Positions 5,216 through 26,417 of a DNA stretch of 37,148 bases are shown one piece after another. The position numbers and the translations under genes are program-made. Within the stretch, counting starts at the first letter, position 1. Each line of letters starts with the position of its first letter. The stretch spans positions 1 through 37,148 of the forward strand of contig CATNDT010000007.1 in assembly GCA_950097035.1 (NCBI GenBank). Direction: 5' to 3'. The stretch is from an uncultured Oscillibacter sp. (GTDB lineage: Bacteria > Bacillota > Clostridia > Oscillospirales > Oscillospiraceae). Below the pieces are notes generated by a model, which worked only from the letters and a program-made list of their open reading frames with translations, ran no database searches and was not told the DNA's origin.

Positions 5216-5833
5216 TCAGCGCATGCCGTCCTCGCACTTGGCCTCGGACTTCTGCAGGCCGCCGATACGACCCTTGCCGTTCACAGTGGCGTGGGGCCGG
5301 CCGCCGTCGCTCAGCACAACGGCCATGACGATCTCATTGGCCCTGGGGGCGTCGGGTACGCGGACCTCGATGGAGCCGTAATGGGTGCGGACAAATGCGG
5401 CGTCCTTGAAGTGGATGGAGATATCCAGAGAGGCGCCCACACCGGCCACCTTCTCGTTGGAGGGGATGATGGACTTGCCGCCGCCAATGGCCGCGCGGAT
5501 GGTCTTGCCGGCCTGGGGATGCAGCATGGCAGAGGAGTGCTCCAGTTCGCCGTCAACACCGACGATGCAGCCCTTGCCGTAGGTCTCAACGTTCTCGGCG
5601 CCCAGCAGCTCCGCGCCCTTGCGGGTCAGCAGGTCGCCCAGATACTCGCCGTACTCGGTCAGCTCGCTCAGATCCTCCTGCCACTTGCCGGCATAGGGGT
5701 TCTCGATAACAGCCGCCACGGATACGGTTTTCAGGCACTTCTTGTCGCCGTTCTCCACGGGCATGCCAGCGCCGCCCTCGGTGTAGATCTCTTCCAGATT
5801 GGTAACGATTTTACGGATCTTGGGCTCTTTCAT
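5216..5833 (-). CDS. AA_synth family protein (PF06684-type), last gene of the nicotinate unit
   Basis: The 205-residue protein starts MKEPKIRKIVTNLEEIY and shows the family's conserved blocks: KCLKTVSVAAVIENPYAG, EYLGDLLTRKGAELLG, YGKGCIVGVDGELEH, AGKTIRAAIGGGKSIIPS and the C-terminal GRPHATVNG region. The family is called amino acid synthesis protein, but I know of no settled reaction for it. AA_synth genes often sit beside ring-opening amidohydrolase genes. Here it follows enamidase by 62 bases, downstream of a clear AGGAGGAATTC site (reading the - strand). It is not one of the nine enzymes described for E. barkeri nicotinate fermentation. A plausible inference is help with handling of 1,4,5,6-tetrahydro-6-oxonicotinate or 2-formylglutarate, for example isomer or enamine conversion. 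It would be cytoplasmic. Confidence 0.82.
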   Translation of the reverse strand: MKEPKIRKIVTNLEEIYTEGGAGMPVENGDKKCLKTVSVAAVIENPYAGKWQEDLSELTEYGEYLGDLLTRKGAELLGAENVETYGKGCIVGVDGELEHSSAMLHPQAGKTIRAAIGGGKSIIPSNEKVAGVGASLDISIHFKDAAFVRTHYGSIEVRVPDAPRANEIVMAVVLSDGGRPHATVNGKGRIGGLQKSEAKCEDGMR

Positions 5834-5895
5834 GATGAATTCCTCCTGTTATTGATAATATCCAGCGCTGTTTCCAGCGGAGTTGACTGTTTTAA

Positions 5896-7053
5896 TCAGC
5901 AGGGCTTCCGATTGGCGGGAGGCGTATTGCTGCTCTTCTTCACGTTGATCTTGCCGTCGATAATGACGTAGCTCAGACCCGGAATATCGCCGGCGGCAAA
6001 AGCGCCCAGAGCGTCCTTGGCAACAGAGCCCATGGGGGCGTCCATAATCAGCAGGTCCGCCTCCTTGCCAACGGCAATGGTGCCGCGGTTCAGGCGGTCA
6101 TAGATCTTGGCAGGGTTGCCGGTAGCCATGGCCACGGCCACCTCGGGGGCGATGCCGGACATGGAGGCGGCAAAGGAGATATTCCGCAGGATGCCAAGGG
6201 GGATGATGCCGGTGCCGGAGGGAGCGTCGTTACCGAACACCACGCGGCCCAGCTGCCCCTTCTCCGTGGCGCGGCGCAGCACGTAGTCGGCGATCTTGGG
6301 GTTGCCGCACTGCACGATCTCCATGGCAAAGGCGGTCTCGTCCATGATGCGGTCCACCTCGTGCTGGGGGATGGCGGTGGGGCCGCCGTTGATGTGGGAG
6401 ACCACATCGGGCTTGGTCTTAATCACATCGTCGGCAGTGACGGTAGAGCTGCCGGGGATGGAGGTACCGCCGGTGTGCATCTGCACCTTGAAGCCATACT
6501 TATGGGCCCACTCCACCATGGGGGCGGCCAACTCAGGGTTATTGACGGAGCCCAGACCGATCTCGCCAACAATCCAAACGCCCTCTTTTGAGAGATCCTC
6601 AAAGTCCTTCTCCACCAGGCCCTTCTCCATAATCAGGGCGCCGCCCTCAACTTTTACGCCGCCGGGATGGGCATTGTTGAAGCTCTTATGGCCCACGATG
6701 GCCAGCGCCTTGGTGCCGGAGGGGTCCTTGGGACGGCCGGGGGTGTGGCACTCACCGGCGGAAATCATGGTGGTTACGCCGCCGTTCTTGGCGCTCTCAA
6801 TATAGCCCACGGTCTTCTGACGGGTGCCATAATCACCGGAAGTCACGTGGACGTGGGTATCCCACAGGCCGGGAGTGACCGTGGTGCCGTTGGCGTCCAC
6901 AACAGTCGCGTCCCCAATGTTAGCGAGGAGCTCTTCGCCGCCGATCGCAGAGATCAGGTTGTCTTCGACAACAATGACGCTGCCCTCGAGAATAGGCTTG
7001 TTAATGTCACCGGAAACAATTGTACCAATGTTCTTGATTACTAAAGTTGCCAT
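5896..7053 (-). CDS. ena: Enamidase (1,4,5,6-tetrahydro-6-oxonicotinate hydrolase)
   Basis: Amidohydrolase-superfamily enzyme of 385 residues, very close to E. barkeri enamidase. It hydrolyses 1,4,5,6-tetrahydro-6-oxonicotinate to ammonia and (S)-2-formylglutarate through a binuclear Zn/Fe site. Visible ligands are H67 and H69 in DTHVHV, E164 in IVGEIGLG, the His in MHTGGTSIPG, the His in SHINGG and the Asp in FGNDAPSG, which is the catalytic base in the family. The long stretch HTGGTSIPGSSTVTADD and the block EIVQCGNPKIADYVLRRA are, as I remember them, near identical to the characterised enzyme. The start has AAGGGAG a few bases upstream (- strand). A structured 287-base spacer separates it from the upstream permease gene. 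It acts in the cytoplasm, third step of the pathway. Confidence 0.96.
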   Translation of the reverse strand: MATLVIKNIGTIVSGDINKPILEGSVIVVEDNLISAIGGEELLANIGDATVVDANGTTVTPGLWDTHVHVTSGDYGTRQKTVGYIESAKNGGVTTMISAGECHTPGRPKDPSGTKALAIVGHKSFNNAHPGGVKVEGGALIMEKGLVEKDFEDLSKEGVWIVGEIGLGSVNNPELAAPMVEWAHKYGFKVQMHTGGTSIPGSSTVTADDVIKTKPDVVSHINGGPTAIPQHEVDRIMDETAFAMEIVQCGNPKIADYVLRRATEKGQLGRVVFGNDAPSGTGIIPLGILRNISFAASMSGIAPEVAVAMATGNPAKIYDRLNRGTIAVGKEADLLIMDAPMGSVAKDALGAFAAGDIPGLSYVIIDGKINVKKSSNTPPANRKPC

Positions 7054-7108
7054 GATTGACTCCCTTCCGCCGCATATACGCGGCTACCTGTTTATTTGCA
7101 ACTCCTCT

Positions 7109-7321
7109 GTCAGACGGGTCTGACGGAGCATTTGCCGAGAGTATACACGGCGCTGGTATCTGCCAGCGCCCCGGCCAAATGCCGGAAAAGACGCAATCCC
7201 TAAGTTCCGGCCTCATCCCCCGGCGGTTTCGCCGGGGGTGAGACCTTTTTAATAACTCAAATGCCTGTACAGTAGTCCGCACAATTTGCCGGGATCCGGC
7301 GGCGCCCGTTCAGACGCCGCC
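7109..7321 (-). other. Structured intergenic region between permease and enamidase
   Basis: The 287-base gap 7054-7340 holds no gene but several stems: 7109-7115 with 7118-7124; 7149-7156 with 7163-7170, enclosed by a longer imperfect stem (7128-7136 with 7173-7182); a perfect 9-base stem 7217-7225 with 7230-7238; and 7298-7304 with 7315-7321. On the - strand the core reads H2 hairpin, then ATACTCTCGGC, then H1 hairpin. A similar arrangement lies upstream of the permease. None has a T run on the - strand, so these look like processing, stabilising or regulatory RNA rather than simple terminators. Confidence 0.5.
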
Positions 7322-7340
7322 GCGCAATGGCTTTACGGAC

Positions 7341-8465
7341 TTATGCCGCGATCTTATAATCGTTCTCCTTGATGATGCCCTTCTTACGCATAAACTCAGA
7401 GGTCAGCCACGCCACAACGGCGGGAATCACAATGGAGATGAGAACCAGACCGATCCAGTCCATGGCTCCGGGGGCGATGGCCGCCTCACCCTGGGCAACA
7501 GCGCCCTCAGAGGGGCTGAGCCAGCCGGTGATGCAGCCGATGGGACCCACCAGACCGCAGGTGCCCATACCGGAGGAGATGGCCGCGCCGTTCATCTTCA
7601 GCTTGAACACGCAGGTGGCGATGGGGCCGTTGATCACCGAGGCGACAACAGCCGGCAGCCAGAGGACCGGCTTGCGAATCAGGTTGGGAACCTGGAGCAT
7701 GGAGGTGCCCAGTCCCTGGGAAACCAGACCGCCCACCTTGTTCTCCCTGTAGGAGGCCACGGCAAAGCCCACCATGTGGGCGCAGCAGCCGGCCACGGCG
7801 GCGCCGCCTGCCAGACCCACCAGGCCCAGTGCGGCACAGATGGCGGCGGAGCTGATGGGCAGGGTCAGAACGATGCCCATAATGGCGGCAACCAGAATGC
7901 CCATCAGGAAGGGCTGCTGGTTGGTGGCCCACATAATGATGTTGCCCAGCCAGCTGGCAGCGGTGCCGATGGGAGGCGCGATCAGTGTTGCCACAAGCAC
8001 GCCGCCCAGAATGGTGACGGTGGGAGTGACGATGAGGTCGACAGGGGTGCGCTTGGAAACCAGCTTGCCCAGGAACACCGCCACCAGGGTGACGACGAAC
8101 ACGGCCAGAGGGCCGCCCGCGCCGCCCAGAGAGTTGGCGGCATAGCCAACCGTCAGGCAGGAATAGATGACAAAGGGAGGCGCTTTCATAGAATAGGCGA
8201 TCGCGCCCGCCATCGCCGCGCCCTGCACAGCCACAGCGAAGTTGCGGGAGTCCACCAGCAGGGCAAACTCCTGACCCCACAGGGCATAGTTCAGGTCAAA
8301 GAGGTATACGCCGACTGTCTGGAAAATCGTACCAATCAGCAGAGAGGCGAAGAGGCCGTGAGCCATGCCGCCCAGGCCGTCGATAAAGATGCGCTGCATG
8401 GTAAAGGAGATATTCTGCTCCGCGCAGTACTTTTTAAAACCGGTTAACTCTTTCGTTTCGTTCAC
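7341..8465 (-). CDS. PTS_EIIC_2-family membrane permease, candidate nicotinate importer
   Basis: A 374-residue polytopic membrane protein with about ten hydrophobic segments and Gly/Ala-rich helices. It begins MNETKELTGFKKYCAEQ from a GTG start with AAGGAGG seven bases upstream. It matches proteins annotated as PTS transporter subunit IIC (PF13303, also PfoR-like), with blocks AIAYSMKAPPFVIYS, GGAGGPLAVFVVTLVAVFLGK, SSAAICAALGLVGLAGGAAVAG and MGTCGLVGPIGCI. There is no EIIA or EIIB gene nearby, and this family generally lacks PTS partners, so phosphotransfer of a sugar is unlikely. Its position between the nicotinate dehydrogenase and enamidase genes argues that it imports nicotinate or a pathway intermediate. 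That substrate is an inference. As far as I recall, the published E. barkeri cluster has no such gene. Confidence 0.85.
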   Translation of the reverse strand: MNETKELTGFKKYCAEQNISFTMQRIFIDGLGGMAHGLFASLLIGTIFQTVGVYLFDLNYALWGQEFALLVDSRNFAVAVQGAAMAGAIAYSMKAPPFVIYSCLTVGYAANSLGGAGGPLAVFVVTLVAVFLGKLVSKRTPVDLIVTPTVTILGGVLVATLIAPPIGTAASWLGNIIMWATNQQPFLMGILVAAIMGIVLTLPISSAAICAALGLVGLAGGAAVAGCCAHMVGFAVASYRENKVGGLVSQGLGTSMLQVPNLIRKPVLWLPAVVASVINGPIATCVFKLKMNGAAISSGMGTCGLVGPIGCITGWLSPSEGAVAQGEAAIAPGAMDWIGLVLISIVIPAVVAWLTSEFMRKKGIIKENDYKIAA

Positions 8466-8534
8466 GTTTTTTCCTCCTTTTAATCTCTACAACCACAGTT
8501 GTCTTGCAGGGGGAATGTATTTGCGAAGTACACG

Positions 8535-8623: not shown

Positions 8624-8632
8624 ATCACAACC

Positions 8633-9634
8633 TTAATCCTTCGCTCCCTGCCCCTCCTGCCAGGCCTTTACAATGTCGGCCGGGAAGATAGGCGTGGAGG
8701 TAAAGCTGCTGCCGATCGCGTCGTTAATGGCCGCGATGGTGGCGGGGATGCTGGGAATCAGCGCCGGCTCGCCGACGCCCTTTGCGCCGTAAGGACCGGC
8801 TTCGCCCTCGCTGCTGACCACAATGGGATACACTACGGGAACGTCCATACTGGTCTCAATGATATACTTGGACAGCGTGGGATTCTTGATGGCTAAAGTC
8901 TTGGGGTCCACCTCGATCTTCTCGCTGATGACAAAGCCGGTGCCCATAGCGGTGCCGCCCTCGATCTGCCCTTCCACCAGCTTCATGCCGATGGGGGTGC
9001 CCACGTCGTGCGCGGAAACGGCCTTCAGCAGGGTCACCTCACCGGTATCCGTATCCACCTCAACCTCCAGAATGGTGGTGGCGTAAGAGTACAGCTCATA
9101 GGGGACGCCGGACATATCCGCGGGGTTGAGGTAGGTGGTCTTGGGGTTATAGTAACCCGCACCCACCGCCAAACGGCCATTTTTGCCCATAGCCGCCATC
9201 AGCTCGGGATAGGACATACGGATGGAGTTGTCTTTGTTGCTGTAAATCTCCCGGTTACGGAAGATCAGATCCTCCTCGGGAACGTTCAGCTCCTCGGAGG
9301 CAGTACGCTTCAGCTCGCCCATAGCATTCAGGCACGCATTTTTTACCGCATTGCCGGTGATGAAGGTCTGCCGGCTGGCGGAAGTAGCGCCGCCCTCCGG
9401 CGCAAACATCGTATCGGCCCAGGAAACCTGAATATTCTCATAGTTCAATCCCAGCGTCTCCGCCGCCACGGACGCCGCCATGGTGGAGGAGCCCTGGCCG
9501 ATGTCCGCCGCGCCCACCGTTACATGAACGCTGGTATCGGGCAGCACCTGCACAAAAGCGGCTGCCGGATTGGGGAGGCCCGTGTTGCCGACGCCGTAGA
9601 ACATACAGCCGACGCCTGTTCCTCTTCTCTTCAT
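8633..9634 (-). CDS. ndhM: Nicotinate dehydrogenase, medium molybdopterin subunit
   Basis: This 333-residue protein is the C-terminal half of a xanthine dehydrogenase-type molybdenum subunit, encoded as a separate gene as in E. barkeri. With NdhL it forms the site that hydroxylates nicotinate to 6-hydroxynicotinate, the first pathway step. Visible motifs are [12 protein letters not shown] at the N-terminus, VGAADIGQG (residues 40-48) for cofactor binding, [16 protein letters not shown] and [10 protein letters not shown] near the C-terminus, whose Glu (about residue 289) is the catalytic base of the superfamily. AAGGGAGGG lies upstream of the ATG (- strand), and the gene follows ndhL by 15 bases. 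The E. barkeri enzyme holds a labile non-selenocysteine selenium; no in-frame TGA is present here, in agreement. Confidence 0.95.
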
Positions 9635-9649
9635 TTCACAAGCCCTCCC

Positions 9650-10936
9650 TTAATCCTTCTTCAAGCGGTCCAGCGCCTCAGGCATGACCTCAGCGGCCTT
9701 GTCCCGGGCCTGTACCAGGGTGTCCATAAAGCCGACGCTTTCTGTCAGCTTCTGCCCGGTGGGAATGACGGACCCCACCTTCTGGGCGTTGATCATCCGG
9801 ATCTCCAGCGGGCTCATGTGCAGTGCCTTGGCCAGGGCGTTCATCTGCCCCTCGTGGCATACGGCGGCCTGGGGCACGCCGAAACCGCGGAACGCGCCGC
9901 ACATGGGGTTGTTGGTATAGGCAAACACCGCGTCACAGCGGACGTTGGGGCACTCATAGGGGCCCACGATGTGCACCGGGGCCCGGCCGATGACCGCCGG
10001 GGCATAGGAGCTGTACGCACCTGCGTCGCAGGTCATATGGCACTCCACAGCCACCAGCTTGCCGTCCTTTGTCGCGCCGGTTTTGCACTTCATGGTCATG
10101 GGGTGGCGCTTGGAGGAGACCATGGTGGACTCACTGCGGGAGCGGACCATCTTCACCGGCCGCTTGGTGTGCCAGACCATCAGCGCGCAGTGAAGCTGTA
10201 CACTGATATCCAGCTTGCCGCCAAAGCCACCGCCGGTAACGGCCTGCTTCACCCGAACCCGGTTCTGGGGCACACCCAGCATGGCGGCCACCTCGTTGCG
10301 GTCATAATGGGCGTTTTGGGTGGAGACGATCACGTTCATCACACCCTGCTCGTCCAGATAGGCGATGCCCGCATCGGGCTCAATGAACATGTGGGAAAGG
10401 ATATGGGTGGAGTAGGTGTTCTCCACAATCACGTCGCACTTGGCCCAGGCCTCGTCCACATTGCCGTATTCCAGGTGCTTTTTCACGTTGACGTTGGTAT
10501 CTCCGTGGACCTTGGGGGAGTCCTCCTCCATGGCCCGCTCAAAGGAGGAGACCGCCTCCAGCTCCTCATATTCCACTTCAATGAGATCCAGGGCATCCTG
10601 CACCAGCTCCGGCGTCTCCGCCGCAACAACGGCAATGGCGTCGCCATAGCGGCGGACCTTGTCGTCCACCAGGCAGGGCTCATCCTTAAAAATGATGCCG
10701 AAGCGGTTCTTGCCGGGAATCGCCGTATGATCCAGGGCGCAGGCCACGCCGGGCAGGGCGCGGGCCTTTTCCAGATTCAGCTTTTTCACATAGGCGTGGG
10801 GCACGGTGCTGCGGAACACGCCGCCGTAGAGCATGTTTGGCATCTTGTAGTCCGCCGCGAACTTGGCTGTGCCCATAACCTTCTCCAGGGAGTCGACCTT
10901 CACATGGTCTTTTGCCAGAACTGCATAGTCTTTCAT
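9650..10936 (-). CDS. ndhL: Nicotinate dehydrogenase, large molybdopterin subunit
   Basis: A 428-residue N-terminal half of a molybdenum hydroxylase large subunit, split from NdhM. It begins MKDYAVLAKDHVKVDSLEKV and shows GTAKFAADYKMPNMLYG, the hammerhead-domain block FRSTVPHAYV, VVAAETPELVQDALDLIEVEYEEL, SHMFIEPDAGIAYL, TGGGFGGKLD (molybdopterin contact) and GAFRGFGVPQAAV. Its ATG overlaps the ndhS stop by four bases, a sign of translational coupling. Together with NdhM, NdhS and NdhF it forms a four-subunit Mo/Fe-S/FAD enzyme that passes electrons from nicotinate to NADP+ in E. barkeri. The two-gene split of the molybdenum protein is a hallmark of this enzyme class and supports the specific call over xanthine dehydrogenase. 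Confidence 0.95.
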   Translation of the reverse strand: MKDYAVLAKDHVKVDSLEKVMGTAKFAADYKMPNMLYGGVFRSTVPHAYVKKLNLEKARALPGVACALDHTAIPGKNRFGIIFKDEPCLVDDKVRRYGDAIAVVAAETPELVQDALDLIEVEYEELEAVSSFERAMEEDSPKVHGDTNVNVKKHLEYGNVDEAWAKCDVIVENTYSTHILSHMFIEPDAGIAYLDEQGVMNVIVSTQNAHYDRNEVAAMLGVPQNRVRVKQAVTGGGFGGKLDISVQLHCALMVWHTKRPVKMVRSRSESTMVSSKRHPMTMKCKTGATKDGKLVAVECHMTCDAGAYSSYAPAVIGRAPVHIVGPYECPNVRCDAVFAYTNNPMCGAFRGFGVPQAAVCHEGQMNALAKALHMSPLEIRMINAQKVGSVIPTGQKLTESVGFMDTLVQARDKAAEVMPEALDRLKKD

Positions 10937-11418
10937 GCCTGCGCCTCCTCTCTTCTGCGCTGGGCCGCCAGCAGCACCGCCTCGATGATCTTGGCGTAGC
11001 CGGTGCAGCGGCAGAGATTGCCGCTCATGGCCAGCTTAACCTCTTCCTCAGTGGGGTTGGGGTTTTTGGCCAGCAGCGCCTCGGCCGACAAAATCATACC
11101 GGGAGTGCAAAAGCCGCACTGCACGGCGCCGCTGTCCATAAAGGCCTGCTGCACCGCGTCGGGCCTGCCGTCGGGGCTTACGCCCTCCAGGGTCACGATG
11201 TCCGCCCCCTGGGCCTGTCCCGCCAGAACGCAGCAGCTGGTGACGGGCTCTCCGTTATAGATCACGGTGCAGGCACCGCACTCGCCCTCGCTGCAGCCCT
11301 CTTTCACACTGGTGAGGTTCAGATCCTCCCGCAGCATATCCAGCAGGCGCTTGTTGGGGTCGATCTCCACAGACACCGGCTTGTGGTTCACGGTACAACG
11401 TACGGTGATCTTGTTCAT
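10933..11418 (-). CDS. ndhS: Nicotinate dehydrogenase, small 2x[2Fe-2S] subunit
   Basis: The 161-residue protein holds two [2Fe-2S] domains. Cys42, Cys47, Cys50 and Cys62 (GCSEGECGACTV...TSCC) form the plant-ferredoxin type cluster. Cys101, Cys104, Cys136 and Cys138 (QCGFCTPGM...NLCRCTGY) form the second, which is typical of xanthine dehydrogenase-type small subunits. It transfers electrons from the molybdenum site to FAD. It overlaps ndhF upstream and ndhL downstream by four bases each. Its length agrees with family members of about 155-165 residues. It is cytoplasmic. Confidence 0.96.
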   Translation of the reverse strand: MNKITVRCTVNHKPVSVEIDPNKRLLDMLREDLNLTSVKEGCSEGECGACTVIYNGEPVTSCCVLAGQAQGADIVTLEGVSPDGRPDAVQQAFMDSGAVQCGFCTPGMILSAEALLAKNPNPTEEEVKLAMSGNLCRCTGYAKIIEAVLLAAQRRREEAQA

Positions 11419-12311
11419 ACCTGCACCTCCTCAATTCCCAGCTGGCCCAGAATGTCGGCAAACAGCTTCTTGAATACGCCCTGGGCCCCTTCCTTCTTAT
11501 AGAACACGGACCAGGGGCGGGACCGGTTGGCCTCCAGAATCTGGTCGTGCATGATGGGCAGCACCTCCAGCATGGTGGCGTAGGAGAGCTTCTTGCCCAC
11601 CAGATACTCCTCGCAGGTGGCAAAGTGCATGGGATACCGGCCCAGTGCGCCGCCCCGCATGGAGACGTGGGTGCACACGCCGGCGTCGTCCACGGTGGCC
11701 GTCATGCCGCCGCCGATGACGCTGATGGCCAGAGACTTGCGCTTGGCCAGCTTGTAAAAGGCGGTGGCGGTGTGCCTGGTGTCCGGCACGGGGAAGGAAA
11801 CCTCCGTCAGCAGCTCATCCGCTTCCAGAATGTTGCGCTTTTCCTTGCCCTCCCCGGCCAGAAAGTCGTTGATGTTCATAGTCCGCTCCCCCCGCACGCT
11901 GCGGAGGGTCACGTCGGCGTTCAGGGTAACGCAGGCCGCTAACCCGTCGCCGGCCACGGAGGACTGGGCGATGTTGCCGCCGATGGTGCCCAGATTCCGG
12001 ATCTGGGGGGAGCCCACCTGGCGGGTGGCGTCGTGAAGGATGCGGACTTTCTCCCGAATGGTCTCATCCGCCGCCAGGGCGGCGTGGGTGGTCATGGAAC
12101 CGATATGGAATCTGCCGCTCTCCACGCGGATATAGCTCAGCTCCGGAATGTGCTTGAGGTCGACGATTACCGCCGGGGTAGCCTTCCGCTCATTCAGCTC
12201 CAGCACCAGGTCCGTGCCGCCGGCGATGGCGGAAACGCTCTCCCGGTGTTCGTGCATCAACTGCAGCGCTTCATCCACAGTTGTGGGTGTATAAAATTCA
12301 AATGGCTTCAT
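11415..12311 (-). CDS. ndhF: Nicotinate dehydrogenase, FAD subunit
   Basis: A 298-residue CoxM-type FAD-binding subunit. The FAD motifs are AGGTD at residues 30-34 and NLGTIGGN at about 106-113; a C-terminal CO dehydrogenase flavoprotein domain follows. It accepts electrons from the two Fe-S clusters of NdhS. The ndhF-ndhS-ndhL-ndhM order is identical to that described in E. barkeri. The start ATG (MKPFEFYTPTTVDEAL) lies 38 bases after the hgd stop with AAGAGGAG upstream on the - strand. The three coding overlaps from here on make one tightly coupled complex-coding block. Confidence 0.95.
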   Translation of the reverse strand: MKPFEFYTPTTVDEALQLMHEHRESVSAIAGGTDLVLELNERKATPAVIVDLKHIPELSYIRVESGRFHIGSMTTHAALAADETIREKVRILHDATRQVGSPQIRNLGTIGGNIAQSSVAGDGLAACVTLNADVTLRSVRGERTMNINDFLAGEGKEKRNILEADELLTEVSFPVPDTRHTATAFYKLAKRKSLAISVIGGGMTATVDDAGVCTHVSMRGGALGRYPMHFATCEEYLVGKKLSYATMLEVLPIMHDQILEANRSRPWSVFYKKEGAQGVFKKLFADILGQLGIEEVQV

Positions 12312-12349: not shown

Positions 12350-13249
12350 TCAGCCCTCTTTGGGGGCGCGGATCTCCACGCCGCACAGCCGTTCCCAGAT
12401 CTTGATGACGGCGGACATGTCCTCACCGCCCAGGCCGGCAGCCCGGGCCTGCTCGTACACCGCCATGCACGCATTGGACATGGGGATGGGCACCTGCATG
12501 GCGCGGCTGGCCTCCTGGGCCAGGGTCAGGTCCTTGTACTGCACGTCCATGGCAAAGCCGGGCTCAAAGGCGTCCGCCATGATGAACTTCTTCATCTTCG
12601 CGGTCAAAGCATAGCTGTTGCCGGAGGAGGTGCTGATGATCTCATACATGGTCTCCGGGTCCAGTCCGCACTTGGCGCCCAGCACCAGAGCCTCCGCCAA
12701 AGAGGCCATGTTGGCGCCCAGCAGCATGTTGTTCACGATCTTCATGGCGTCGCCCATGCCCACGCCGCCGATGTGCTGGATGCGCTTGCCAATGGCCTGG
12801 AGCACCGGCTCCACCCGGGCAAAGGTCTCGTCATCCGCGCCCACCATAATGGTCAGGGTGCCGGCCTCAGCGCCGGCGGTGCCGCCGCTGACGGGGGCGT
12901 CGATATATTTCACGCCCCTCTCCGCCGCAACCTTCGCCATCTTCTGTGTGGTGGCAGGGGCCACGGAGGACATATCCACGATCACGGTGCCGGGCTTGCA
13001 GGCCGCCAGCACACCCTCGGGGCCGCACATCACGCTCTCCACAATCGCGCCGTTGGGCAGCATGGTAAAGGCCACGTCCACCTCGGCCGCCAGTGCCTGG
13101 TTGGTGGGGCAGTGCTTCGCGCCCAGGGCCACCAGCTGGTCCACCAGAGCGGGCACCAGATCGTTTACATAGGTCTCAAATCCGGCCTTGACCACATTCG
13201 TCGCCATGTGCTTGCCCATGCGTCCAAGGCCGATAAATCCAACTTTCAT
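12350..13249 (-). CDS. hgd: 2-(hydroxymethyl)glutarate dehydrogenase
   Basis: A 299-residue member of the 3-hydroxyisobutyrate dehydrogenase family. It reduces (S)-2-formylglutarate to (S)-2-(hydroxymethyl)glutarate with NADH. The N-terminus MKVGFIGLGRMGKHMA is a Rossmann fold with GxGxxG. Next come DMSSVAPATTQ, the substrate-binding DAPVSGGTAGAEAGTL and the catalytic Lys in GDAMKIVNNMLLG. The start was placed at 13249, much shorter than the open frame, because AAGGAGA lies seven bases upstream and the Rossmann glycines must sit near the N-terminus. It lies 47 bases after the UPF0280/ApbE-like gene and before ndhF. Tetrahydrofolate is not needed; fourth step of the pathway. Confidence 0.94.
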   Translation of the reverse strand: MKVGFIGLGRMGKHMATNVVKAGFETYVNDLVPALVDQLVALGAKHCPTNQALAAEVDVAFTMLPNGAIVESVMCGPEGVLAACKPGTVIVDMSSVAPATTQKMAKVAAERGVKYIDAPVSGGTAGAEAGTLTIMVGADDETFARVEPVLQAIGKRIQHIGGVGMGDAMKIVNNMLLGANMASLAEALVLGAKCGLDPETMYEIISTSSGNSYALTAKMKKFIMADAFEPGFAMDVQYKDLTLAQEASRAMQVPIPMSNACMAVYEQARAAGLGGEDMSAVIKIWERLCGVEIRAPKEG

Positions 13250-13296
13250 AGTTGCATTCTCCTTATTTTCAAGTTGCCCCCAAAAGGGGCCTTCTG

Positions 13297-15643: not shown

Positions 15644-15707
15644 GCTCCTCGTTCTCCTTTTCACAGTAATACAGTAATAATGTGGCTACTTACACTCCAT
15701 TGAGTTT

Positions 15708-16561: not shown

Positions 16562-16617
16562 TGCTATCACCTCCCTTCAACAGGCAGCGCCCGCTATTTT
16601 TTCTAAAGATGTACGGA

Positions 16618-18091: not shown

Positions 18092-18114
18092 CACTTCACC
18101 TGCTCTTTCCGGCA

Positions 18115-19009: not shown

Positions 19010-20437
19010 TCATTCTTTAATATAATGCTCTTTCATAAAGTCCAGAACCATGTCCGGATAGTGTTTTCCCAAAACGCCCAGGGCATAGAAGATATAGTCC
19101 CGGTCCAGCAGGATCTCAGGCTCCTCCAGGGGCAGCAGTGAGATGCCCGGGTCCGCAAAGCAGCGGCGCACCAGCTCTCTCCCCTGCTCCTCCCCGGTGT
19201 GAACGAAGATGCCGCCCACGCACAACACCCGGCGGACGTTCCGCAGGTCCCGCCCCATAGCCGTGCCGGCCATGATGCCCATCACGGGGTCCGCCTCCTG
19301 GGCGTAGACCCCCGCGTGGCGGCGCAGGGCCACGCTGATGGCGCAGGAGGCCAGCGCCCGGTCCAGGGACGCCTCTTTCTCCCCGTCGGGAACGTGGCCG
19401 GTGTGGCGCTCCAGCTCCTCGGTGTAGTCCAGCACGTCGTCCGGCTCCAAGCCGAAGTCCCGGTCCATGGCCCGGATGACCGCCTTGGGGCCCACCGCGT
19501 CGGGGATGCCCATGGCGCTGACCCGCAGCCCCAGGTTTCCCTCCACCGTGCGGTAGGAGAATTGCTTTTCGTTGTTGATAACCAGGCCCCGCTCCTCAAT
19601 GGTCAGGTTCTCCAGCTCCGGGATGGCGGAGTGGATGTCCGTGGTGGCGCCGCCGATGTCCACTAAAATCAGCGACCCGCTGCCCTCCTGCTCGTAGCTG
19701 CCCTTGGCCAGCAGCTCGCTTGCCAGCAGCACCGCGCCGGGGGTGGGCACCACCACCCGGTCCTCCAGCGTGGCCTGGAATTCCAGCAGCCCCTTCGCCC
19801 GGGTGATCTGGCGGATGAACTGCTCGTGGATGGCCGTGCGGGCCGGGGCCACCTTCAGCTCATGAATGGTGGGCATGATGTTGGGCACCCGCACGCACTC
19901 GATGCCGGCGGCGGCGAACTTCTCCGCCACCTGCCGCTGGATATAGCGGTTGCAGCCTAAAATCACCGTGGCCTTGCTTTTCAGCTCGCAGATCATATCC
20001 GCGTTTTCCAGCACGCAGGTCTCGTCCCCGCCGTCGGTACCGCCGGAGAGGAGGATGATGTCCGGATTGATCTCCCGCAGAACCTCCCGCCGGAAGGACA
20101 GGGGCTCGTCAGCGGAGACCACCTGCATCACACGGGCCCCGGCGGTCATGGCCACCTCCTTGGCGGCCTTCACCGTCACCCGGGGCATATAGCCCAGGGC
20201 CACCATCCGCAGCCCGCCGGCGGCGCTGCAGGAGCTGTAGCGCCGCACCCGGTGGGCGAAGCTGACGCCCTGGGCCCGCAGGGCCTCCTCGGCCCCGCGG
20301 GTGCCCTCCATCACGTCGGAGAGGGTGGTGGGCGACTGGCCCCGCCCCAGATAGGTCAGGGTCCCGCCCTCGTCGGAAAACGCGGCTGCTTTAGTATAGG
20401 TGCTGCCGATGTCATAAACCAGGATATTCGCAAGCAT
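19010..20437 (-). CDS. mgmL: MutL/GlmL-family reactivase for the B12 mutase
   Basis: A 475-residue ASKHA ATPase of the GlmL/MutL family, which restores inactive adenosylcobalamin-dependent glutamate mutase in other clostridia. The phosphate 1 loop is LVYDIGSTYTKA at the N-terminus and phosphate 2 is LILVDIGGATTDIHSA. Further blocks are RRYSSCSAAGGLRMV, DIILLSGGTDGGDE, GCNRYIQRQVAEKF, PGAVLLASELLAKG and RRVLCVGGIFVH. ATG 20437 was chosen because GAGGAG lies eight bases upstream; the GTG further upstream lies within that leader. Located between mii and dml, its client is almost certainly 2-methyleneglutarate mutase. I recall a gene of this kind called mgmL in E. barkeri, so the symbol is given with some reserve. 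It is cytoplasmic. Confidence 0.87.
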   Translation of the reverse strand: MLANILVYDIGSTYTKAAAFSDEGGTLTYLGRGQSPTTLSDVMEGTRGAEEALRAQGVSFAHRVRRYSSCSAAGGLRMVALGYMPRVTVKAAKEVAMTAGARVMQVVSADEPLSFRREVLREINPDIILLSGGTDGGDETCVLENADMICELKSKATVILGCNRYIQRQVAEKFAAAGIECVRVPNIMPTIHELKVAPARTAIHEQFIRQITRAKGLLEFQATLEDRVVVPTPGAVLLASELLAKGSYEQEGSGSLILVDIGGATTDIHSAIPELENLTIEERGLVINNEKQFSYRTVEGNLGLRVSAMGIPDAVGPKAVIRAMDRDFGLEPDDVLDYTEELERHTGHVPDGEKEASLDRALASCAISVALRRHAGVYAQEADPVMGIMAGTAMGRDLRNVRRVLCVGGIFVHTGEEQGRELVRRCFADPGISLLPLEEPEILLDRDYIFYALGVLGKHYPDMVLDFMKEHYIKE

Positions 20438-20468
20438 TGCGCTCACTCCTCAAAGAGCCTCTCCGGAC

Positions 20469-21602
20469 TCAGTCTTCGTCGGGAACCAGGGCGTAGCCCT
20501 CCATCAGGCGGCGGGCGGTGCGGACCAGGGCGGTCTTCTTCACCTGGGTGCCCTCCACCGCGGCCACCACGGGGATTACCCCGGCGGGATGGCCGATGCG
20601 GATGGTGTCGATGCTGTCGATATGGGGGATGACCTGGTTGACAATGGTGCCCTTGATCTTGGCCGCCGCGCCGGTGCAGGCGGTGGCAGTGCCGGCGTAG
20701 GTCTTGTGGAGCTTCTGCATGAACATCAGCCGGGAGACGAAGTCCACCTCGTCTTTCTTAATGGTCTTGCCGGTGGTGAAGTCCGTATAGTCTCCAGCCT
20801 CGGTGACGAAGGCCACCATGGGGAAGGCGGGAGAGTTCTTCGTGGCGTCGGCGGGGTCCTTGGCCATGCCGATCATGGCGCAGCACTTGGAGCGGATCTC
20901 CTCCAGCAGGGCCAGCAGCTCGGCGTTGCCGTCGATCTCGGCGGGGGTCTCGGTGCCTTTCATGCCCACGTCCCTGGCCCGGACAAACACGCAGGGGTTG
21001 GCCACGTCCACGATGGAGGCCTCAATAGGGCCGCGGCTGGTTTCCAGCACGTCCACCACGTTGCCGGTGGGCAACACCTTGCCGGTGGCCGCGCCGGCGG
21101 TGCCGGCGAAGTCCAGCTGGATGGGGGACCCGGTGCCGGGCACACCGGCGATCTCGCAGTCGCCCTTCACCCGGGCCTTGCCGTCCTTTACCTCCACCTC
21201 GGCGTAGAGCATCTTGTCGGTGTTGGTGTTGCGGATGCGCACCCGGGTCACGGGCTCCACCGCGGCCACCATGGACTCGTCGATGGCGAAGGGACCCACA
21301 CCGGAGGAGATGTTGCCGCAGTTGCCGCCGTAGTCCACCACCCGCTCCTTCAGGGAGATCTGGGCAAAGGTATAGTCCACGTCCGCGTCAGGGCTGGCGG
21401 AGGGGCCGATGATGGCCAGCTTGCTGGTCAGGGCGTCCGCGCCGCCCAAACCGTCGATCTGGCGGATATCGGGGCTGCCGAACAGGCGCAGAATCAGTTC
21501 GTCCCGCTCCTTCTGGTCGGCGGGCAGATCATTGGCCTTGATATACAGGCCCTTGCTGGTGCCGCCCCGCATAATCACAAGGGGTACTCTCTTCTGTTCC
21601 AT
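20469..21602 (-). CDS. mii: 3-methylitaconate delta-isomerase (PrpF family)
   Basis: A 377-residue PrpF-family protein with a double diaminopimelate-epimerase-like fold. It moves the double bond of 3-methylitaconate to give 2,3-dimethylmaleate. K61 in ADALTSKLAIIG and C95 in YGGNCGNISSG match the catalytic Lys62 and Cys96 of the E. barkeri enzyme, as far as I remember that structure. Also visible are VIMRGGTSKGLY at the N-terminus and the C-terminal IDTIRIGHPAGVI. The gene starts 37 bases after the mgm stop with AGGAGG upstream of ATG 21602 (- strand). It is the seventh step and is cytoplasmic. Confidence 0.94.
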   Translation of the reverse strand: MEQKRVPLVIMRGGTSKGLYIKANDLPADQKERDELILRLFGSPDIRQIDGLGGADALTSKLAIIGPSASPDADVDYTFAQISLKERVVDYGGNCGNISSGVGPFAIDESMVAAVEPVTRVRIRNTNTDKMLYAEVEVKDGKARVKGDCEIAGVPGTGSPIQLDFAGTAGAATGKVLPTGNVVDVLETSRGPIEASIVDVANPCVFVRARDVGMKGTETPAEIDGNAELLALLEEIRSKCCAMIGMAKDPADATKNSPAFPMVAFVTEAGDYTDFTTGKTIKKDEVDFVSRLMFMQKLHKTYAGTATACTGAAAKIKGTIVNQVIPHIDSIDTIRIGHPAGVIPVVAAVEGTQVKKTALVRTARRLMEGYALVPDED

Positions 21603-21638: not shown

Positions 21639-23492
21639 TTATTTTCCCTGCTTTTCCTCAATGAGGGCAGTGATCTTCTCCACGCACTCCTCGGGGGTGC
21701 TGTCGGGGCCGAAAAAGGCGTCCACGCCCATAAAGCCCACGCCCTCGTCGCGGATCTTGTCCTCGTAGTAGCGGTGCTCCTCCTCTTTCTCGGCGATGCG
21801 GCCGCCGGCCCAGACCACGGTCTTGTCCCGCAGGCCCAGCTCTTTCAGCCGCGCCTCCACACGGGGGAACAGCGTCACGCCCAGGCCCAGCAGGTTGGAA
21901 ACGCCCACGGCGTCTGCCTTCACCTCGGCGGCCACCTCGGCCACGGTCTCCGGCAGGTTCATGCCCCGGAGGTACACCACGTCGTACCCCGCGTCCTGGA
22001 AGGCCTCCCGCACCACGTTGACGCCGTTGACATGGGCGTCCGCGCCCACGGTGGCGAGAACGATCTTCTCCTTCCGCGTGGGGGGCTTTTCAATGTGGAC
22101 GGTAACGTGCTCCTGCGTGATGGGGCAGCGGGAGGCGTCCACGCCCAGGGGGGTGTAGCCCTCCACATAGCGGGTGATGCCGTCGGGGTCCCGGTTGGTC
22201 TTGACATAGCGCTTGAGGTCCCAGCCGCCGGCCCGGGGGGTGTCCATCATGCCGCTCTTGCCGCCCTCCACAATGAGGTCGATGAGCTCCATATCCGTCC
22301 ACTGCTTCCAGAATTCCTCCGTCAGGCAGCCGGGCTTGAGGCTGTGGGCGGGCAGGTGCAGCACGGCCTCCAGCACGGCGAAGGCCTCGTCCATCATCAT
22401 ATTCTCATACTCGTCGATCTTGGGGGACTCGATACCGGGGTTGTAGGTGCGGCGGAACACGTCCTCGCTGGCCCACACGGCCTGGCCCATGGAGTCGCCG
22501 GTGGGGATGCCCACGGACTCGGCGGCCTTGGGCCGGTAGAAGTTGGCCCCGCCCAGCTTGGCGGCGATGGCCATGCGGGCGAAGTGGGCCTGCTCGGCGA
22601 TGAGGTTGCCCGGAGGGCTCTGGAAGGTCTCGGGCACCACGATCAAACTCTTGGAGAGCATGTTGTGGCGGAAGGCCCGCATGATGGCAAGGTCGCGGTA
22701 CAGGTTGTTGCCGCCCACGTTCATCTGGATGCCGCTGAGCTCCCAGGCAAGGCCGCCGTGAGCCGCCAGGCCCTCGGCCAGCAGGCACATGGCGATGGCC
22801 ATGCCGTCGGTCCCGCCGATGTTGTTGATGTGCTTGTGGGTGTCCAGCTGGGCAAAGATGTTGTTCTCGCCGCAGATCTGGATGGCCTTGTAGCCGTTGA
22901 TCACCTTGGTGCGGAAGTCGTGAATGCCGCGGCCGCCGAAGTGGACGTGGATGACGGGGCCGATGTCGGTGCCGTCAAACCCGGCGATGAGGGCGTTTAA
23001 GATGTTGATGTGGGCCGTGTCGCCGGTGGCGTTGATGCGGACGGGGTGCTTGGCGCCGCCGCCCATCTGGATGAACTCCCGCTCCCCCTTGGGGGTGATG
23101 CCGCCCTTGCCCCGGGACTGCTCAATGAGCTCCCGGCCCTTCAGGGGGTCGATGTGGCGGGTGGCCTCTGAGTGGACGAACTGGAAGATGGTGTCGTCGT
23201 ACTTGTCCGCGTACTTGTAGATGTCGCAGGACTCCTTCCAGGTCTCCTCCGCGCTGTTGCGGCCCAGAATGGGGTTCAGGCAGGGCACGCCGGTCTCCAG
23301 TGCCTTCTGGCCCAGCTCGTAGATGCGGTAGCCGCTGCGGACCACGCCGGCCACCTCCCGGGGATAGGGACCGGGCAGGCCCACCACCTCGCCGTTTTCA
23401 TCCAAATCCGGCATCTCCACGTCAAAGCAGTCCGCATAGGCGCGGATGGTCTCGATATCTTCCCTGATAATCTGTTTTGTCTTTTCCTGCAT
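21639..23492 (-). CDS. mgm: 2-methyleneglutarate mutase (coenzyme B12-dependent)
   Basis: A 617-residue enzyme, close to the 614 of the E. barkeri mutase. It rearranges the carbon skeleton of 2-methyleneglutarate to 3-methylitaconate with adenosylcobalamin. A substrate-binding TIM-barrel-like part fills the first ~450 residues. A C-terminal B12 domain carries DAHVNG, in which D485 and H487 form the DxHxxG base-on/His-off motif and correspond to D483 and H485 of the known enzyme. LLGLG and WAGG loops of the B12 fold follow. ATG 23492 lies behind a GAGGAGAGG site and 18 bases after the dmdB stop. It probably depends on the MutL-like protein two genes downstream and on cobamide supply from elsewhere in the genome. 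No B12 riboswitch was found nearby. Confidence 0.95.
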
Positions 23493-23510
23493 GGTATTCC
23501 TCTCCTCTTT

Positions 23511-24005
23511 TCAGTCTGTAATGCCCAGCTCCGCACGCACGCGGGGGATCAGACCGCCGTAGGTCAGCGTCTTCACCACGTTCTCCGCCATGGGCTGGAA
23601 CTGCTTTATCTCACCGTTCACGGTCACGGTACCTTTCTCCAGGTCCACCGCAATTTGGTCTCCGGTCTTCAGGCCATCCGCCACGTCCGCCACCCACACC
23701 GGCAGGCCGATGTTGATGGAGTTGCGCCGGAAGATGCGGGCAAAGCCCTTGGCGATGACCAGGGCCACCTCCGCCTGGCGCAGGGCGATGGGGGCCTGCT
23801 CCCGGGAGGAGCCGCAGCCGAAGTTTCGCCCCGCCACCAGGATGCAGCCCGGCTCATACACGGTTTTGAAATCCACCCCCGCAAGGCCCGCCATGGCAAA
23901 CCTGCCCAGCTGGTCGTAGGGCTCCGCCATGGCATAGCCCGGCAGAATCTGATCGGTGTCCACATCGTCCCCAAGGACGATGACTTTTCCCTTAATCACT
24001 TCCAT
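23511..24005 (-). CDS. dmdB: 2,3-dimethylmalate dehydratase, small subunit
   Basis: A 164-residue LeuD/AcnB-type swivel-domain subunit. It shows LGDDVDTDQILPG, GRNFGCGSSREQAP (the substrate-carboxylate binding GCGSSREQAP loop), FARIFRRNSINIGLPV and LIPRVRAELG. Start 24005 was chosen for AAGGAG eight bases upstream. It pairs with DmdA just upstream to hydrate 2,3-dimethylmaleate to (2R,3S)-2,3-dimethylmalate. Alone it could be taken for isopropylmalate dehydratase, but there are no leucine genes here. Confidence 0.93.
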   Translation of the reverse strand: MEVIKGKVIVLGDDVDTDQILPGYAMAEPYDQLGRFAMAGLAGVDFKTVYEPGCILVAGRNFGCGSSREQAPIALRQAEVALVIAKGFARIFRRNSINIGLPVWVADVADGLKTGDQIAVDLEKGTVTVNGEIKQFQPMAENVVKTLTYGGLIPRVRAELGITD

Positions 24006-24023
24006 ATTCACTGCTCCTTCCCA

Positions 24024-25208
24024 TCACAGCTCCGGCACGGTGATCTTCCCCGCCAGGGCGGAGGCCGCCGCGGTGGCCGGGGATGCCAGATAGATATTGG
24101 CCTTCATGCTGCCCATCCGCCCAGGGAAGTTGCGGTTGGTGGTGGACACCACCACGTCCCGGGCGCTGGCCAGACCCTCATGGGCCCCGAAGCAGGAGCC
24201 GCAGCCGGGGTTGAGCACAGTGGCCCCCGCGTCCCGGATGATCTTGCACCAGCCCCGCTCCTCCATCTGCTCCAAAATCTCCCTGGAGGCGGGGACAATG
24301 AGGGTGTTGACCTCCGGGTTCACCTTTTTGCCCCGGAAGGCGTTCACCACCTGCTCCATGTCGGACAGGCGGCCGTTGGTGCAGCTGCCCACCACCACCT
24401 GGGTGATGGCGGTTCCCGCCACCTCCCGCACCGGCACCACATTGGCCGGGGAGAAGGGCCGGGCGATCTGGGGCTCCAGCGCGGCAAGGTCCAGATCCAG
24501 ATCCTCCGCCGTGTCCGTCTCCCGCTCCGTTGTGCCGAAGAGGGTGATCATGCTGCCCAGCTCAATGCCCATGTTGCACACGGTCATGCGCTCCGCCACG
24601 CTCAGCTCCTCAATGCCGGGGCCGGTGAACAGCAACGCCCGGTCCACCAGGTGATCCGTGCCGAATTTACTGCCCAGGTACAAAATCACGTCCTTGCCAA
24701 ACACGTTGGCCGGCCGCTTTCCGGTGAGGTAGATCTGCACCACCTCCGGGACCTCCAGGTCCAGCGTGCCCGTGGCCATGGCCGCCGCCAGCTCCGTGGA
24801 GCCCACGCCCACGCCCACCGCGCCGTAGCCGCCGCAGGTGCCGGTGTGGGAGTCCGCGATGACCACCAGCTCGCCGGGAGCCGCCCGGTGCTTTTCATAC
24901 ATCAGCTGGTGAATCACGCCCTCGCCCCGCTGATAGAGATGTACGCCAAACTCCTTGGCAAAGTCGTCCATAATCCACACGTTGTCCCGGGCCTTTTCAG
25001 AAGAGGCGGGATAGATGTGGTCTACAATCAGCGCCACCCGGTCCGGGTCGAACACCTTTTTCACCCCGATCTCCCGAAACATCTTGATCGCGATGGGGGC
25101 CGTCACGTCGTGGGCCGCCACATAACTGACGCGGCAGCTCAAATCCATACCCGGGAAGACGCTCTCCTTCCCGGCGGCCTTTGCCAGATATTTTTCAACA
25201 AGATTCAT
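24024..25208 (-). CDS. dmdA: 2,3-dimethylmalate dehydratase, large subunit
   Basis: A 394-residue LeuC/aconitase-type subunit with a [4Fe-4S] cluster. Visible are VAAHDVTAPIAI, VIADSHTGTCGGYGAVG, VVGSCTNGRLSDMEQV and NPGCGSCFGAHEG; the Cys residues in TCGG/SCTNG and PGCGSC supply the cluster ligands. With DmdB it hydrates dimethylmaleate to 2,3-dimethylmalate. It is the first gene of the upstream transcript and has its own promoter at 25285-25313. Start 25208 was chosen for GGAGTGA five bases upstream. The LysR gene diverges from it. The pathway neighbours support Dmd over isopropylmalate or homoaconitate hydratase. Confidence 0.94.
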   Translation of the reverse strand: MNLVEKYLAKAAGKESVFPGMDLSCRVSYVAAHDVTAPIAIKMFREIGVKKVFDPDRVALIVDHIYPASSEKARDNVWIMDDFAKEFGVHLYQRGEGVIHQLMYEKHRAAPGELVVIADSHTGTCGGYGAVGVGVGSTELAAAMATGTLDLEVPEVVQIYLTGKRPANVFGKDVILYLGSKFGTDHLVDRALLFTGPGIEELSVAERMTVCNMGIELGSMITLFGTTERETDTAEDLDLDLAALEPQIARPFSPANVVPVREVAGTAITQVVVGSCTNGRLSDMEQVVNAFRGKKVNPEVNTLIVPASREILEQMEERGWCKIIRDAGATVLNPGCGSCFGAHEGLASARDVVVSTTNRNFPGRMGSMKANIYLASPATAAASALAGKITVPEL

Positions 25209-25284
25209 GGCATTCACTCCGTTTTCAAGTTTTTGTACCTCTCTGCGCGGCAGCGCTGCCGCACTTTTTCAGCCTTGCCGTTTC

Positions 25285-25313
25285 ATTGTACAGGACTCCC
25301 GTCAAAATAACAA
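25285..25313 (-). promoter_or_regulatory. dmdA promoter with overlapping LysR-type site
   Basis: On the - strand TTGTTA (25308-25313) and TACAAT (25285-25290) have exact 17-base spacing. The -35 overlaps the dyad ATAA-N7-TTAT (25307-25321), which resembles LysR-type sites of ATAC-N7-GTAT form, and contains the GTATTTGT element seen at the hnr promoter. Confidence 0.65.
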
Positions 25314-25408
25314 ATACTTATAATCTAACCATCCGCCCCTGTCATATATTTTTCAAATCCCTGCTGCCGGAGGCGAAAGTTAGATCACTTCTTTGGGCCA
25401 TCTTATGG

Positions 25409-25437
25409 TTGAGATATTGGAATTTCTGTGCTATACT
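25409..25437 (+). promoter_or_regulatory. Promoter of the LysR regulator gene
   Basis: TTGAGA (25409-25414) and TATACT (25432-25437) are 17 bases apart and lie 69 bases before the start codon. It diverges from the dmdA promoter with about 95 bases between the two -35 boxes, a usual layout for an autoregulated LysR gene. Confidence 0.7.
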
Positions 25438-25505
25438 AAAAATAAATGGATGTCCTTACCGCATATTCTTTTTGGTTTCACCGGACATAAGGGGTGGGAA
25501 TTGCT

Positions 25506-26417
25506 GTGACTTTAAAACAACTGGAGTACTTTTTAGCCATCGCCGAAACGGAGAGTATCACCCAGGCGGCGGAGATGCTGCACGTCTCGCAGCCTCCTCT
25601 GAGCCTTCAGCTCAAGGCGCTGGAGGATGAATTTGGCGTCCCTCTCTTTGAGCGCACCAAACGGGGGCTGATTATTACACAGTCCGGGCGGTTATTGGCC
25701 CAACGGGCACAGGATATCTTCGACCTGATCGACCAAACCGTCAACGAGGTGCGGAGCAAAACCGCCTCTCCGAAAATAAAGCTCCGGGTGGGCACCGTCA
25801 ATTCCGTATCCAACCGGTTGATCCCCCCGTGGATCTATACCTATAACTGCACCTACCCCAATGTGGACATCCAGGTCTCCGAGGCCAGCACCACCGACAT
25901 CCTGTTCTCGCTTGACGAGCACAAGATCGATTTGGGCATCGTCCGCGAACCCTTTAACAAAAGCCGCTACAACTGCCGCCTCATCCGGGACGAGGCCCTC
26001 ACCGGGCATGACTATGACTGCTTTGTGGCCCTGGCCTGCCCCAGCTTTTACGCCGGTCTGGAGGGCAACACCATCCCCCTGACCGAGCTGCGGGACTTTC
26101 CCCTGCTGCTGCACCGCCGGTATATCTCCATGTTCACCAAATACTGCAAAACCTGCGGCTTCATTCCCAATATCACCTGCAAGAATAACGACGTCATGTC
26201 TCTTTTAAGCTGGGCCAAGGCCGGAATCGGCATTGCGGTGCTGCCCTACTCCTCCTCCCTTTTAAACATGGACCCCAACCTAGTGCGCAAGGAGATTGTG
26301 GAGCCCCTGATCCCCTCCAGGATCTATGTGGTGTGGAACCGGGATGTGAAGCTGTCCGCCGAGGCGGAGCGGTTTTTGGACCTCATCTCCGTAAAGTCCG
26401 GCGGCGGGACAGATTAG
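25506..26417 (+). CDS. LysR-type transcriptional regulator of the nicotinate cluster
   Basis: A 303-residue LysR-family regulator. GTG 25506 was chosen because GGGGTGGG lies seven bases upstream and because the family's N-terminus then begins directly with MTLKQLEYFLAIAETES. The helix-turn-helix is ITQAAEMLHVSQPPLSLQLKALE (given here in two parts: ITQAAEMLHVSQ, PPLSLQLKALE). A typical effector-binding domain follows, with LRVGTVNSVSNRL, DLGIVREPF and AKAGIGIAVLPYSS. It is the only divergently transcribed gene of the region and faces dmdA, so it most probably controls the nicotinate genes in response to nicotinate or an intermediate. The effector is unknown. No close similarity to MarR/TetR-type nicotinate regulators of aerobic bacteria is seen. 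Confidence 0.92.
   Translation: MTLKQLEYFLAIAETESITQAAEMLHVSQPPLSLQLKALEDEFGVPLFERTKRGLIITQSGRLLAQRAQDIFDLIDQTVNEVRSKTASPKIKLRVGTVNSVSNRLIPPWIYTYNCTYPNVDIQVSEASTTDILFSLDEHKIDLGIVREPFNKSRYNCRLIRDEALTGHDYDCFVALACPSFYAGLEGNTIPLTELRDFPLLLHRRYISMFTKYCKTCGFIPNITCKNNDVMSLLSWAKAGIGIAVLPYSSSLLNMDPNLVRKEIVEPLIPSRIYVVWNRDVKLSAEAERFLDLISVKSGGGTD

Follow-up and report, generated by a model that had tools for sequence, protein, structure and literature searches.

Predicted nicotinate fermentation genes in an Oscillibacter genome: a known pathway with a different aconitase-family pair and a conserved reductase module

Does an uncultured Oscillibacter sp. carry the genes for anaerobic nicotinate fermentation of the kind known from Eubacterium barkeri, a soil bacterium that converts nicotinate to propionate? 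The question is raised by contig CATNDT010000007.1 of the metagenome-assembled genome (MAG) GCA_950097035.1, of which a stretch of 37,148 nucleotides was analyzed (hereafter, the window). At positions 5216-25217, 18 closely spaced genes are located on the minus strand, and a LysR-family regulator gene (25494-26417, plus strand) is divergent from them. Judging from sequence relationship, gene order, and linkage, it is highly probable (about 0.88) that this block encodes E. barkeri-type nicotinate fermentation. An earlier note on this DNA had assigned all nine pathway steps, a MutL-like protein, and the divergent regulator; all nine steps can indeed be assigned and every gene named is present. 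Four genes of the block had been missed, namely those for PF06684, PTS_EIIC_2 (phosphotransferase system, PTS; hereafter EIIC2), UPF0280, and an S-adenosylmethionine (SAM)-dependent methyltransferase.

With the reactions ordered as in the E. barkeri literature, nicotinate dehydrogenase (NdhFSLM), probably with labile selenium, would hydroxylate nicotinate at C6, 6-hydroxynicotinate reductase (Hnr) would reduce the ring, and enamidase (Ena) would open it to give 2-formylglutarate and ammonia. A dehydrogenase (Hgd) and a dehydratase (Hmd) would then lead to 2-methyleneglutarate, which the mutase Mgm, held active by MutL, would convert to 3-methylitaconate. The isomerase Mii would form 2,3-dimethylmaleate, DmdAB would hydrate it, and the lyase Dml would cleave the product to propionate and pyruvate. 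In addition, EIIC2 may import nicotinate, UPF0280 may attach the flavin of Hnr, and LysR may switch the block on. The Ena step of the nicotinate pathway is described in a passage of PMC9304392.

Comparisons with solved structures and with the E. barkeri cluster carry this assignment. The top structures are those of enamidase for Ena (2vun), nicotinate dehydrogenase for NdhL and NdhM (3hrd_A and 3hrd_B), 2-hydroxymethylglutarate dehydrogenase for Hgd (3cky), and 3-methylitaconate isomerase for Mii (3g7k), with the next entries far behind in each case; all four structures come from E. barkeri. Matches of this strength are well outside what chance would give. The molybdopterin subunit is split into separate genes (ndhL and ndhM), and ndhF and ndhS complete a four-subunit nicotinate dehydrogenase. 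For Mgm, the match to solved structures is confined to the B12 domain. Amino acid sequence identities to the locus of E. barkeri VPI 5359 (L013) are highest for Dml (76%), Mgm (75%), Ena (74%), Mii (72%), Hnr (72%; locus cut), and NdhL (71%), followed by Hmd (68%, over 99%), NdhS (67%), NdhM (64%), Hgd (63%), PF06684 (62%), MutL (60%), NdhF (59%), EIIC2 (59%), and UPF0280 (55%), and are lowest for DmdB (40%) and DmdA (38%). The high identity at Ena, Mgm, and Hnr is what the earlier note had expected of a true nicotinate cluster. That note had also considered that the aconitase-, isocitrate lyase (ICL)-, and PrpF-like proteins might all match leucine or methylcitrate enzymes best. Instead, the best match of the PrpF-like protein is 3-methylitaconate isomerase (592 bits vs. 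241 for the next), and the ICL-like protein is the Dml that is 76% identical to its E. barkeri counterpart.

Several observations weigh against the assignment. The best solved structure for Dml is another ICL-family enzyme, the petal death protein (219 bits), and LysR and the methyltransferase have no match in L013. DmdA is equally far from the E. barkeri pair (38%) and from the LeuC of its own host (39%). Moreover, the host genome encodes a nicotinate phosphoribosyltransferase, which shows that nicotinate also serves the host as a source of NAD.

The genes of the block, in transcription order from dmdA and ending with the divergent regulator, are as follows.

24024-25217, minus strand: dmdA, aconitase-family large subunit, proposed 2,3-dimethylmaleate hydratase (PF00330, 303 bits)
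23511-24011, minus strand: dmdB, aconitase-family small subunit (TIGR02087, 153.7 bits, cut-off 108.95; loop QILPGYAM)
21639-23492, minus strand: mgm, B12-dependent 2-methyleneglutarate mutase (B12 domain; DxHxxG at 485, SNL at 532)
20469-21602, minus strand: mii, 3-methylitaconate isomerase (3g7k, E 4e-177)
19010-20446, minus strand: mutL, GlmL/MutL-like, proposed mutase reactivase (PF13941, 425 bits; GlmL equivalog 378, below 475)
18115-18996, minus strand: dml, 2,3-dimethylmalate lyase, ICL/phosphoenolpyruvate mutase family (PF13714)
16676-18115, minus strand: hmd, serine-dehydratase-like 2-hydroxymethylglutarate dehydratase (PF03313, weak match of 29.3 bits, cut-off 26.4)
15845-16570, minus strand: SAM-dependent methyltransferase (PF08241, 77 bits)
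14129-15664, minus strand: hnr, 6-hydroxynicotinate reductase, ferredoxin-like N-terminus and 400-residue body (Fer4; 72% to L013)
13297-14127, minus strand: UPF0280 (ApbE-like), proposed flavin transferase for Hnr (NF003322, 198 bits, cut-off 290)
12350-13249, minus strand: hgd, 2-hydroxymethylglutarate dehydrogenase (2-formylglutarate reductase) (3cky, E 3e-113)
11415-12311, minus strand: ndhF, nicotinate dehydrogenase FAD subunit (PF00941)
10933-11418, minus strand: ndhS, nicotinate dehydrogenase [2Fe-2S] subunit (PF01799, PF00111)
9650-10936, minus strand: ndhL, large molybdopterin subunit (3hrd_A, E 1e-203)
8633-9634, minus strand: ndhM, medium molybdopterin subunit (3hrd_B, E 5e-129)
7341-8465, minus strand: EIIC2 (PTS_EIIC_2-family membrane protein), proposed nicotinate importer (PF13303, 293 bits)
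5896-7053, minus strand: ena, enamidase (2vun, E 1e-182)
5216-5833, minus strand: PF06684 (AA_synth/DUF1185) protein (PF06684, 207 bits)
25494-26417, plus strand: LysR-family regulator, divergent from dmdA (PF00126, PF03466)

The open reading frame listed for hgd (12350-13648) is too long, and its start is placed at the ATG at 13249; from sequence context, the likely starts of dmdA and hnr are the ATGs at 25208 and 15643, respectively. Intergenic gaps are at most 36 bases from dmdA to hmd and at most 47 bases from hnr to ndhM, and range from 105 to 287 bases around the methyltransferase and EIIC2 genes, in agreement with the two adjacent one-strand units described earlier. In the window, neither Rfam nor tRNA scans gave a match.

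For a broader view, 52 loci (including L013) were profiled from a scan of genome contigs with Mgm. Since the scan relied on exact peptides from the window Mgm, it is biased toward close relatives. Because many of these loci end early, the counts at 60% coverage or more are lower bounds: Mii was found in at least 49 loci, Dml and Hmd in at least 46 each, Hgd in at least 43, Hnr in at least 33, Ena in at least 26, and NdhL in at least 23; PF06684 was found in 36 and the methyltransferase in 10. The apparent absence of Ena, EIIC2, or Ndh in L003, L007, and L009 is such a locus-end artifact, as the genes were found beyond. Similarly, the idea that three Sporomusa loci (L033, L035, and L037) represent an Ena-less pathway for another substrate was dropped after Ena was found in those genomes, just past the end of the compared stretch by contig position. 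Ena is present in all 13 genomes of relatives that were searched.

The step that sets the window apart is the hydration of dimethylmaleate. The E. barkeri pair scores above both NCBIfam cut-offs (LeuC 726 bits, cut-off 610.65; LeuD 262 bits, cut-off 245.85), whereas the window pair is below both, with 355 bits for DmdA against the LeuC model LEU2 and 133 bits for DmdB against LeuD. In a DmdA tree of 55 rows, the window belongs to a group of 39 rows, all of them Mgm-linked loci apart from the window itself (support 93/87, not starred), while E. barkeri and Eubacterium aggregans group with the host LeuC (L067) and a Moorella row (98/96, starred). Yet other kinds are found in A. bakii, KR46, and Smac51. 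Since the tree was flagged for long branches meeting, weight was placed on the cut-offs and on the DmdB loop that follows DTD. Among 41 loci compared, from which those with less than 85% coverage (e.g., L014, L017, and L040) had been excluded, 38 share with the window the loop sequence QILPGYAM or a close variant of it. The corresponding residues are VIIPARFL in both E. barkeri and E. aggregans and AIIPARYL in Moorella. DmdA has cysteines 279, 339, and 342 in aconitase-like contexts. A search of the E. barkeri genome found no closer copy of the window pair (best 42%). By the kind of its DmdAB, therefore, the window lacks an E. barkeri-type dimethylmaleate hydratase and is a pathway variant at this step. 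The earlier assignment of DmdAB holds insofar as an aconitase-family pair is present in the block, but at 38/40% identity it is not orthologous to the E. barkeri pair, so that the assignment of the step rests on context. From its place in the cluster, we infer that the window pair hydrates dimethylmaleate.

Alternatively, DmdAB may have a housekeeping role in hydrating isopropylmalate or citraconate and just adjoin the cluster, with another enzyme hydrating dimethylmaleate. This would fit the low identity to the E. barkeri pair, as well as some loci (e.g., L030, L034, L039, and L051) in which the pair next to Mgm has clearly been lost. However, the host has a separate LeuC and LeuD, the window pair does not reach the cut-offs for either, and the pair is present in at least 44 of the 52 loci (60% coverage or more), mostly in the window kind. 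We regard this alternative as improbable, and dimethylmaleate hydration by DmdAB as the better explanation. Given the differences in tree groups, cut-offs, and loops, enzymes for the dimethylmaleate step were probably recruited on more than one occasion. In the four loci named above, no window-kind DmdAB was found in the clusters and the best DmdA-like match in these genomes is 36-43%; yet other enzymes may do the step there. Separately, two aconitase-like frames adjoin each other in the host genome, one of 385 residues immediately followed by a fused one of 608 residues (L066; G000:C44:13502-16396).

The second distinctive feature of the block is a module formed by Hnr, UPF0280, and PF06684. 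In the window, the UPF0280 gene begins 1 base after hnr, and the two adjoin in most Mgm loci. Hnr reaches 60% coverage in 33 loci; UPF0280 does so in 32 of them and is present in broken frames in the remaining one (L051). Because these loci had all been chosen by Mgm, a second sample was taken from plasmids with Hnr. Hnr was found on 26 plasmids, all from Proteobacteria by organism name, and 13 of these (L119-L131) were compared. Each of the 13 has the order Hnr-UPF0280-PF06684, with two PF06684 genes in tandem in 10 loci and a single one in three. Mgm, Hgd, and EIIC2 have no match in the compared stretches of these loci, and several of them have ABC transporter genes and a ferredoxin-NADP reductase gene. 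A search of plasmids for Mgm gave just B12-domain matches, in six haloarchaeal records.

From the linkage on plasmids, UPF0280 appears to assist Hnr. Hnr was reportedly described with a covalent flavin by Alhapel in 2006, and together with the weak ApbE-likeness of UPF0280 this makes flavin attachment to Hnr its likeliest role. In an alignment of 25 UPF0280 sequences, N119, G120, G121, D122, D189, and T193 are invariant, and the plasmid copies have GGD in 13/13 and ADxxAT in 12/13; GGD and ADxxxT-like motifs are motifs of ApbE. The Pfam ApbE model (PF02424) scores 29.5 for the E. barkeri protein. Speaking against a flavin transferase, the window protein just reaches the cut-off of this model (25.6 at 25.6), the UPF0280 of one plasmid locus (L119) has no Pfam match at 0.001, L020 has UPF0280 apart from Hnr, and L030 has a cut Hnr and no UPF0280 in its stretch. 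A literature search that combined UPF0280 with flavin, confined to an open-licence library, gave no paper. Hnr itself has only Fer4 domains in Pfam; its 400-residue body has no Pfam match, and the modelled body has no clear match among solved structures. In the Hnr alignment, S321, G324, R325, F327, G328, G331, G333, G335, and G336 are invariant and T337 is nearly so. In a search of Hnr for DxxSGAT, the ApbE target motif, Asp332 proved not to be conserved, and hence no attachment residue is named.

PF06684 is part of the same module. A structure of this family with a chorismate mutase-like fold and a histidine cluster has been described (PMC2954203), and the main text of that paper does not contain the word stem "nicotin". 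A role of PF06684 as a RidA-like enamine hydrolase is no more than a guess.

The plasmid loci also bear on the substrate, since the occurrence of the module beside other genes means that it can serve more than one route. Near Hnr, several of these loci have annotated hydantoinase/oxoprolinase-type gene pairs, hinting at another ring-opening enzyme, and some have dioxygenase genes. The window cluster could accordingly serve a related N-heterocycle, e.g., 6-hydroxynicotinate from other microbes, with nicotinate not the main substrate. However, the cluster has a complete set of the four Ndh subunits, with NdhL aligning to 3hrd_A along its length, which makes this very unlikely compared with nicotinate fermentation.

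A more far-reaching synthesis would hold that most nicotinate fermenters, including the window, use a second dimethylmaleate hydratase that forms its own aconitase subfamily, with the E. barkeri enzyme being a LeuCD recruit, that Hnr, UPF0280, and PF06684 form an ancient module also present in Proteobacteria, with UPF0280 acting as a flavin transferase dedicated to Hnr, and that the 400-residue body of the ring reductase has a fold new to solved structures. For these propositions jointly, we see somewhat less than an even chance.

For uptake, EIIC2 is the natural candidate. It has several hydrophobic stretches, the E. barkeri cluster includes it, and in Anaerotruncus colihominis its gene is flanked by LysR and Ena. 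Profile searches of the block identified no phosphorylation partner of the PTS type.

The host MAG (3.09 Mb) is 81% complete and 5.35% contaminated. Its SelD gene adjoins YqeB, a neighborhood that marks selenium-dependent molybdenum hydroxylases according to a passage of PMC2276186; selenium in Ndh is not visible from sequence. CobQ is also encoded. As nicotinate phosphoribosyltransferase was found and nadA was not found in the 81% complete genome, the host may need the vitamin it degrades. Within the family, Mgm at E 1e-100 or better was found in six of 300 genomes drawn, including the host, and in none of five other same-genus genomes among those listed. This last absence, together with the contamination and the GC content (62% in the cluster, 59% and 57% in the flanks), would be consistent with a misbinned contig from a species other than the rest of the MAG. 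However, the patchy occurrence also fits horizontal transfer, and the genome has the selenium and B12 genes needed by the pathway, common as these are. Misbinning appears unlikely.

The nearest relatives of the cluster are in MAGs named Oscillibacter and Dysosmobacter, which points to an Oscillospiraceae host. The nearest locus (L003, Oscillibacter) has 90% DNA identity over 9.5 kb, and in both L003 and L007 the same genes continue through to PF06684. The flanking DNA of the window has no match in the compared stretches of L003, L007, and A. colihominis. L007 shares 97, 91, and 98% identity with L010 in Mii, MutL, and Dml, whereas its Hnr is 93% identical to that of the window and 68% to that of L010. 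L010 and the window share 79-91% in Hgd and Ndh and 68% in Hnr. These gene-by-gene identities point to exchange between clusters, which are mosaics, and the gene set looks to have moved horizontally and recombined. Outside the block, the window has two adjoining DUF6765 (PF20551) genes (2095-4320), an N-acetylmuramoyl-L-alanine amidase gene (4524-5132), and, beyond LysR (26737-34786), cell-surface glycan-type genes for glycosyltransferases and a PTPS_related membrane protein, including a glycosyltransferase fused to a sulfatase-like domain (31877-34786).

If nicotinate fermentation is correctly predicted, some gut-type Oscillospiraceae would use vitamin B3 as a substrate and might, in addition, depend on it as a vitamin. 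A passage of PMC12934955 gives nicotinate fermentation by E. barkeri as an example of vitamin catabolism and states that vitamin degradation in the gut has received little attention. The comparison yields candidates for an Hnr flavin transferase and for an importer, as well as a different enzyme type proposed for the hydration of dimethylmaleate; none of the three came up in literature searches confined to an open-licence library. The replaced enzyme pair and the conserved Hnr module are good bench targets, and a deposited strain, A. colihominis DSM 17241, carries the gene set.

Compared with known systems, the block adds a predicted representative from a gut-type lineage to a pathway that has been described before. 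It has one enzyme pair of a different type, in place of the E. barkeri one, and the conserved Hnr module; two neighboring genes look like overlooked parts of the pathway. A. colihominis DSM 17241 (L009, L115) has the same enzymes, DmdAB of the window type (84/84% identity), the methyltransferase, and the LysR-EIIC2-Ena side. It differs in gene order and in its NdhF (39%) and Hgd (61%). LysR is 91% identical in L003 and 47% in A. colihominis, where it lies beside EIIC2. Among A. colihominis-type clusters (L009, L016, and others), NdhF is 38-41% and NdhL 67% identical to the window, suggesting that the FAD subunit is of two distinct kinds. E. barkeri (L013) shares all nine enzymes and the MutL, EIIC2, UPF0280, and PF06684 genes with the window, and retains the internal orders Hnr-UPF0280-Hgd-NdhFSLM-EIIC2-Ena-PF06684 and Mgm-Mii-MutL-Dml-Hmd. 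In contrast, its two blocks are swapped and its DmdAB genes are located elsewhere and belong to another subfamily, and the window additionally has the methyltransferase and LysR.

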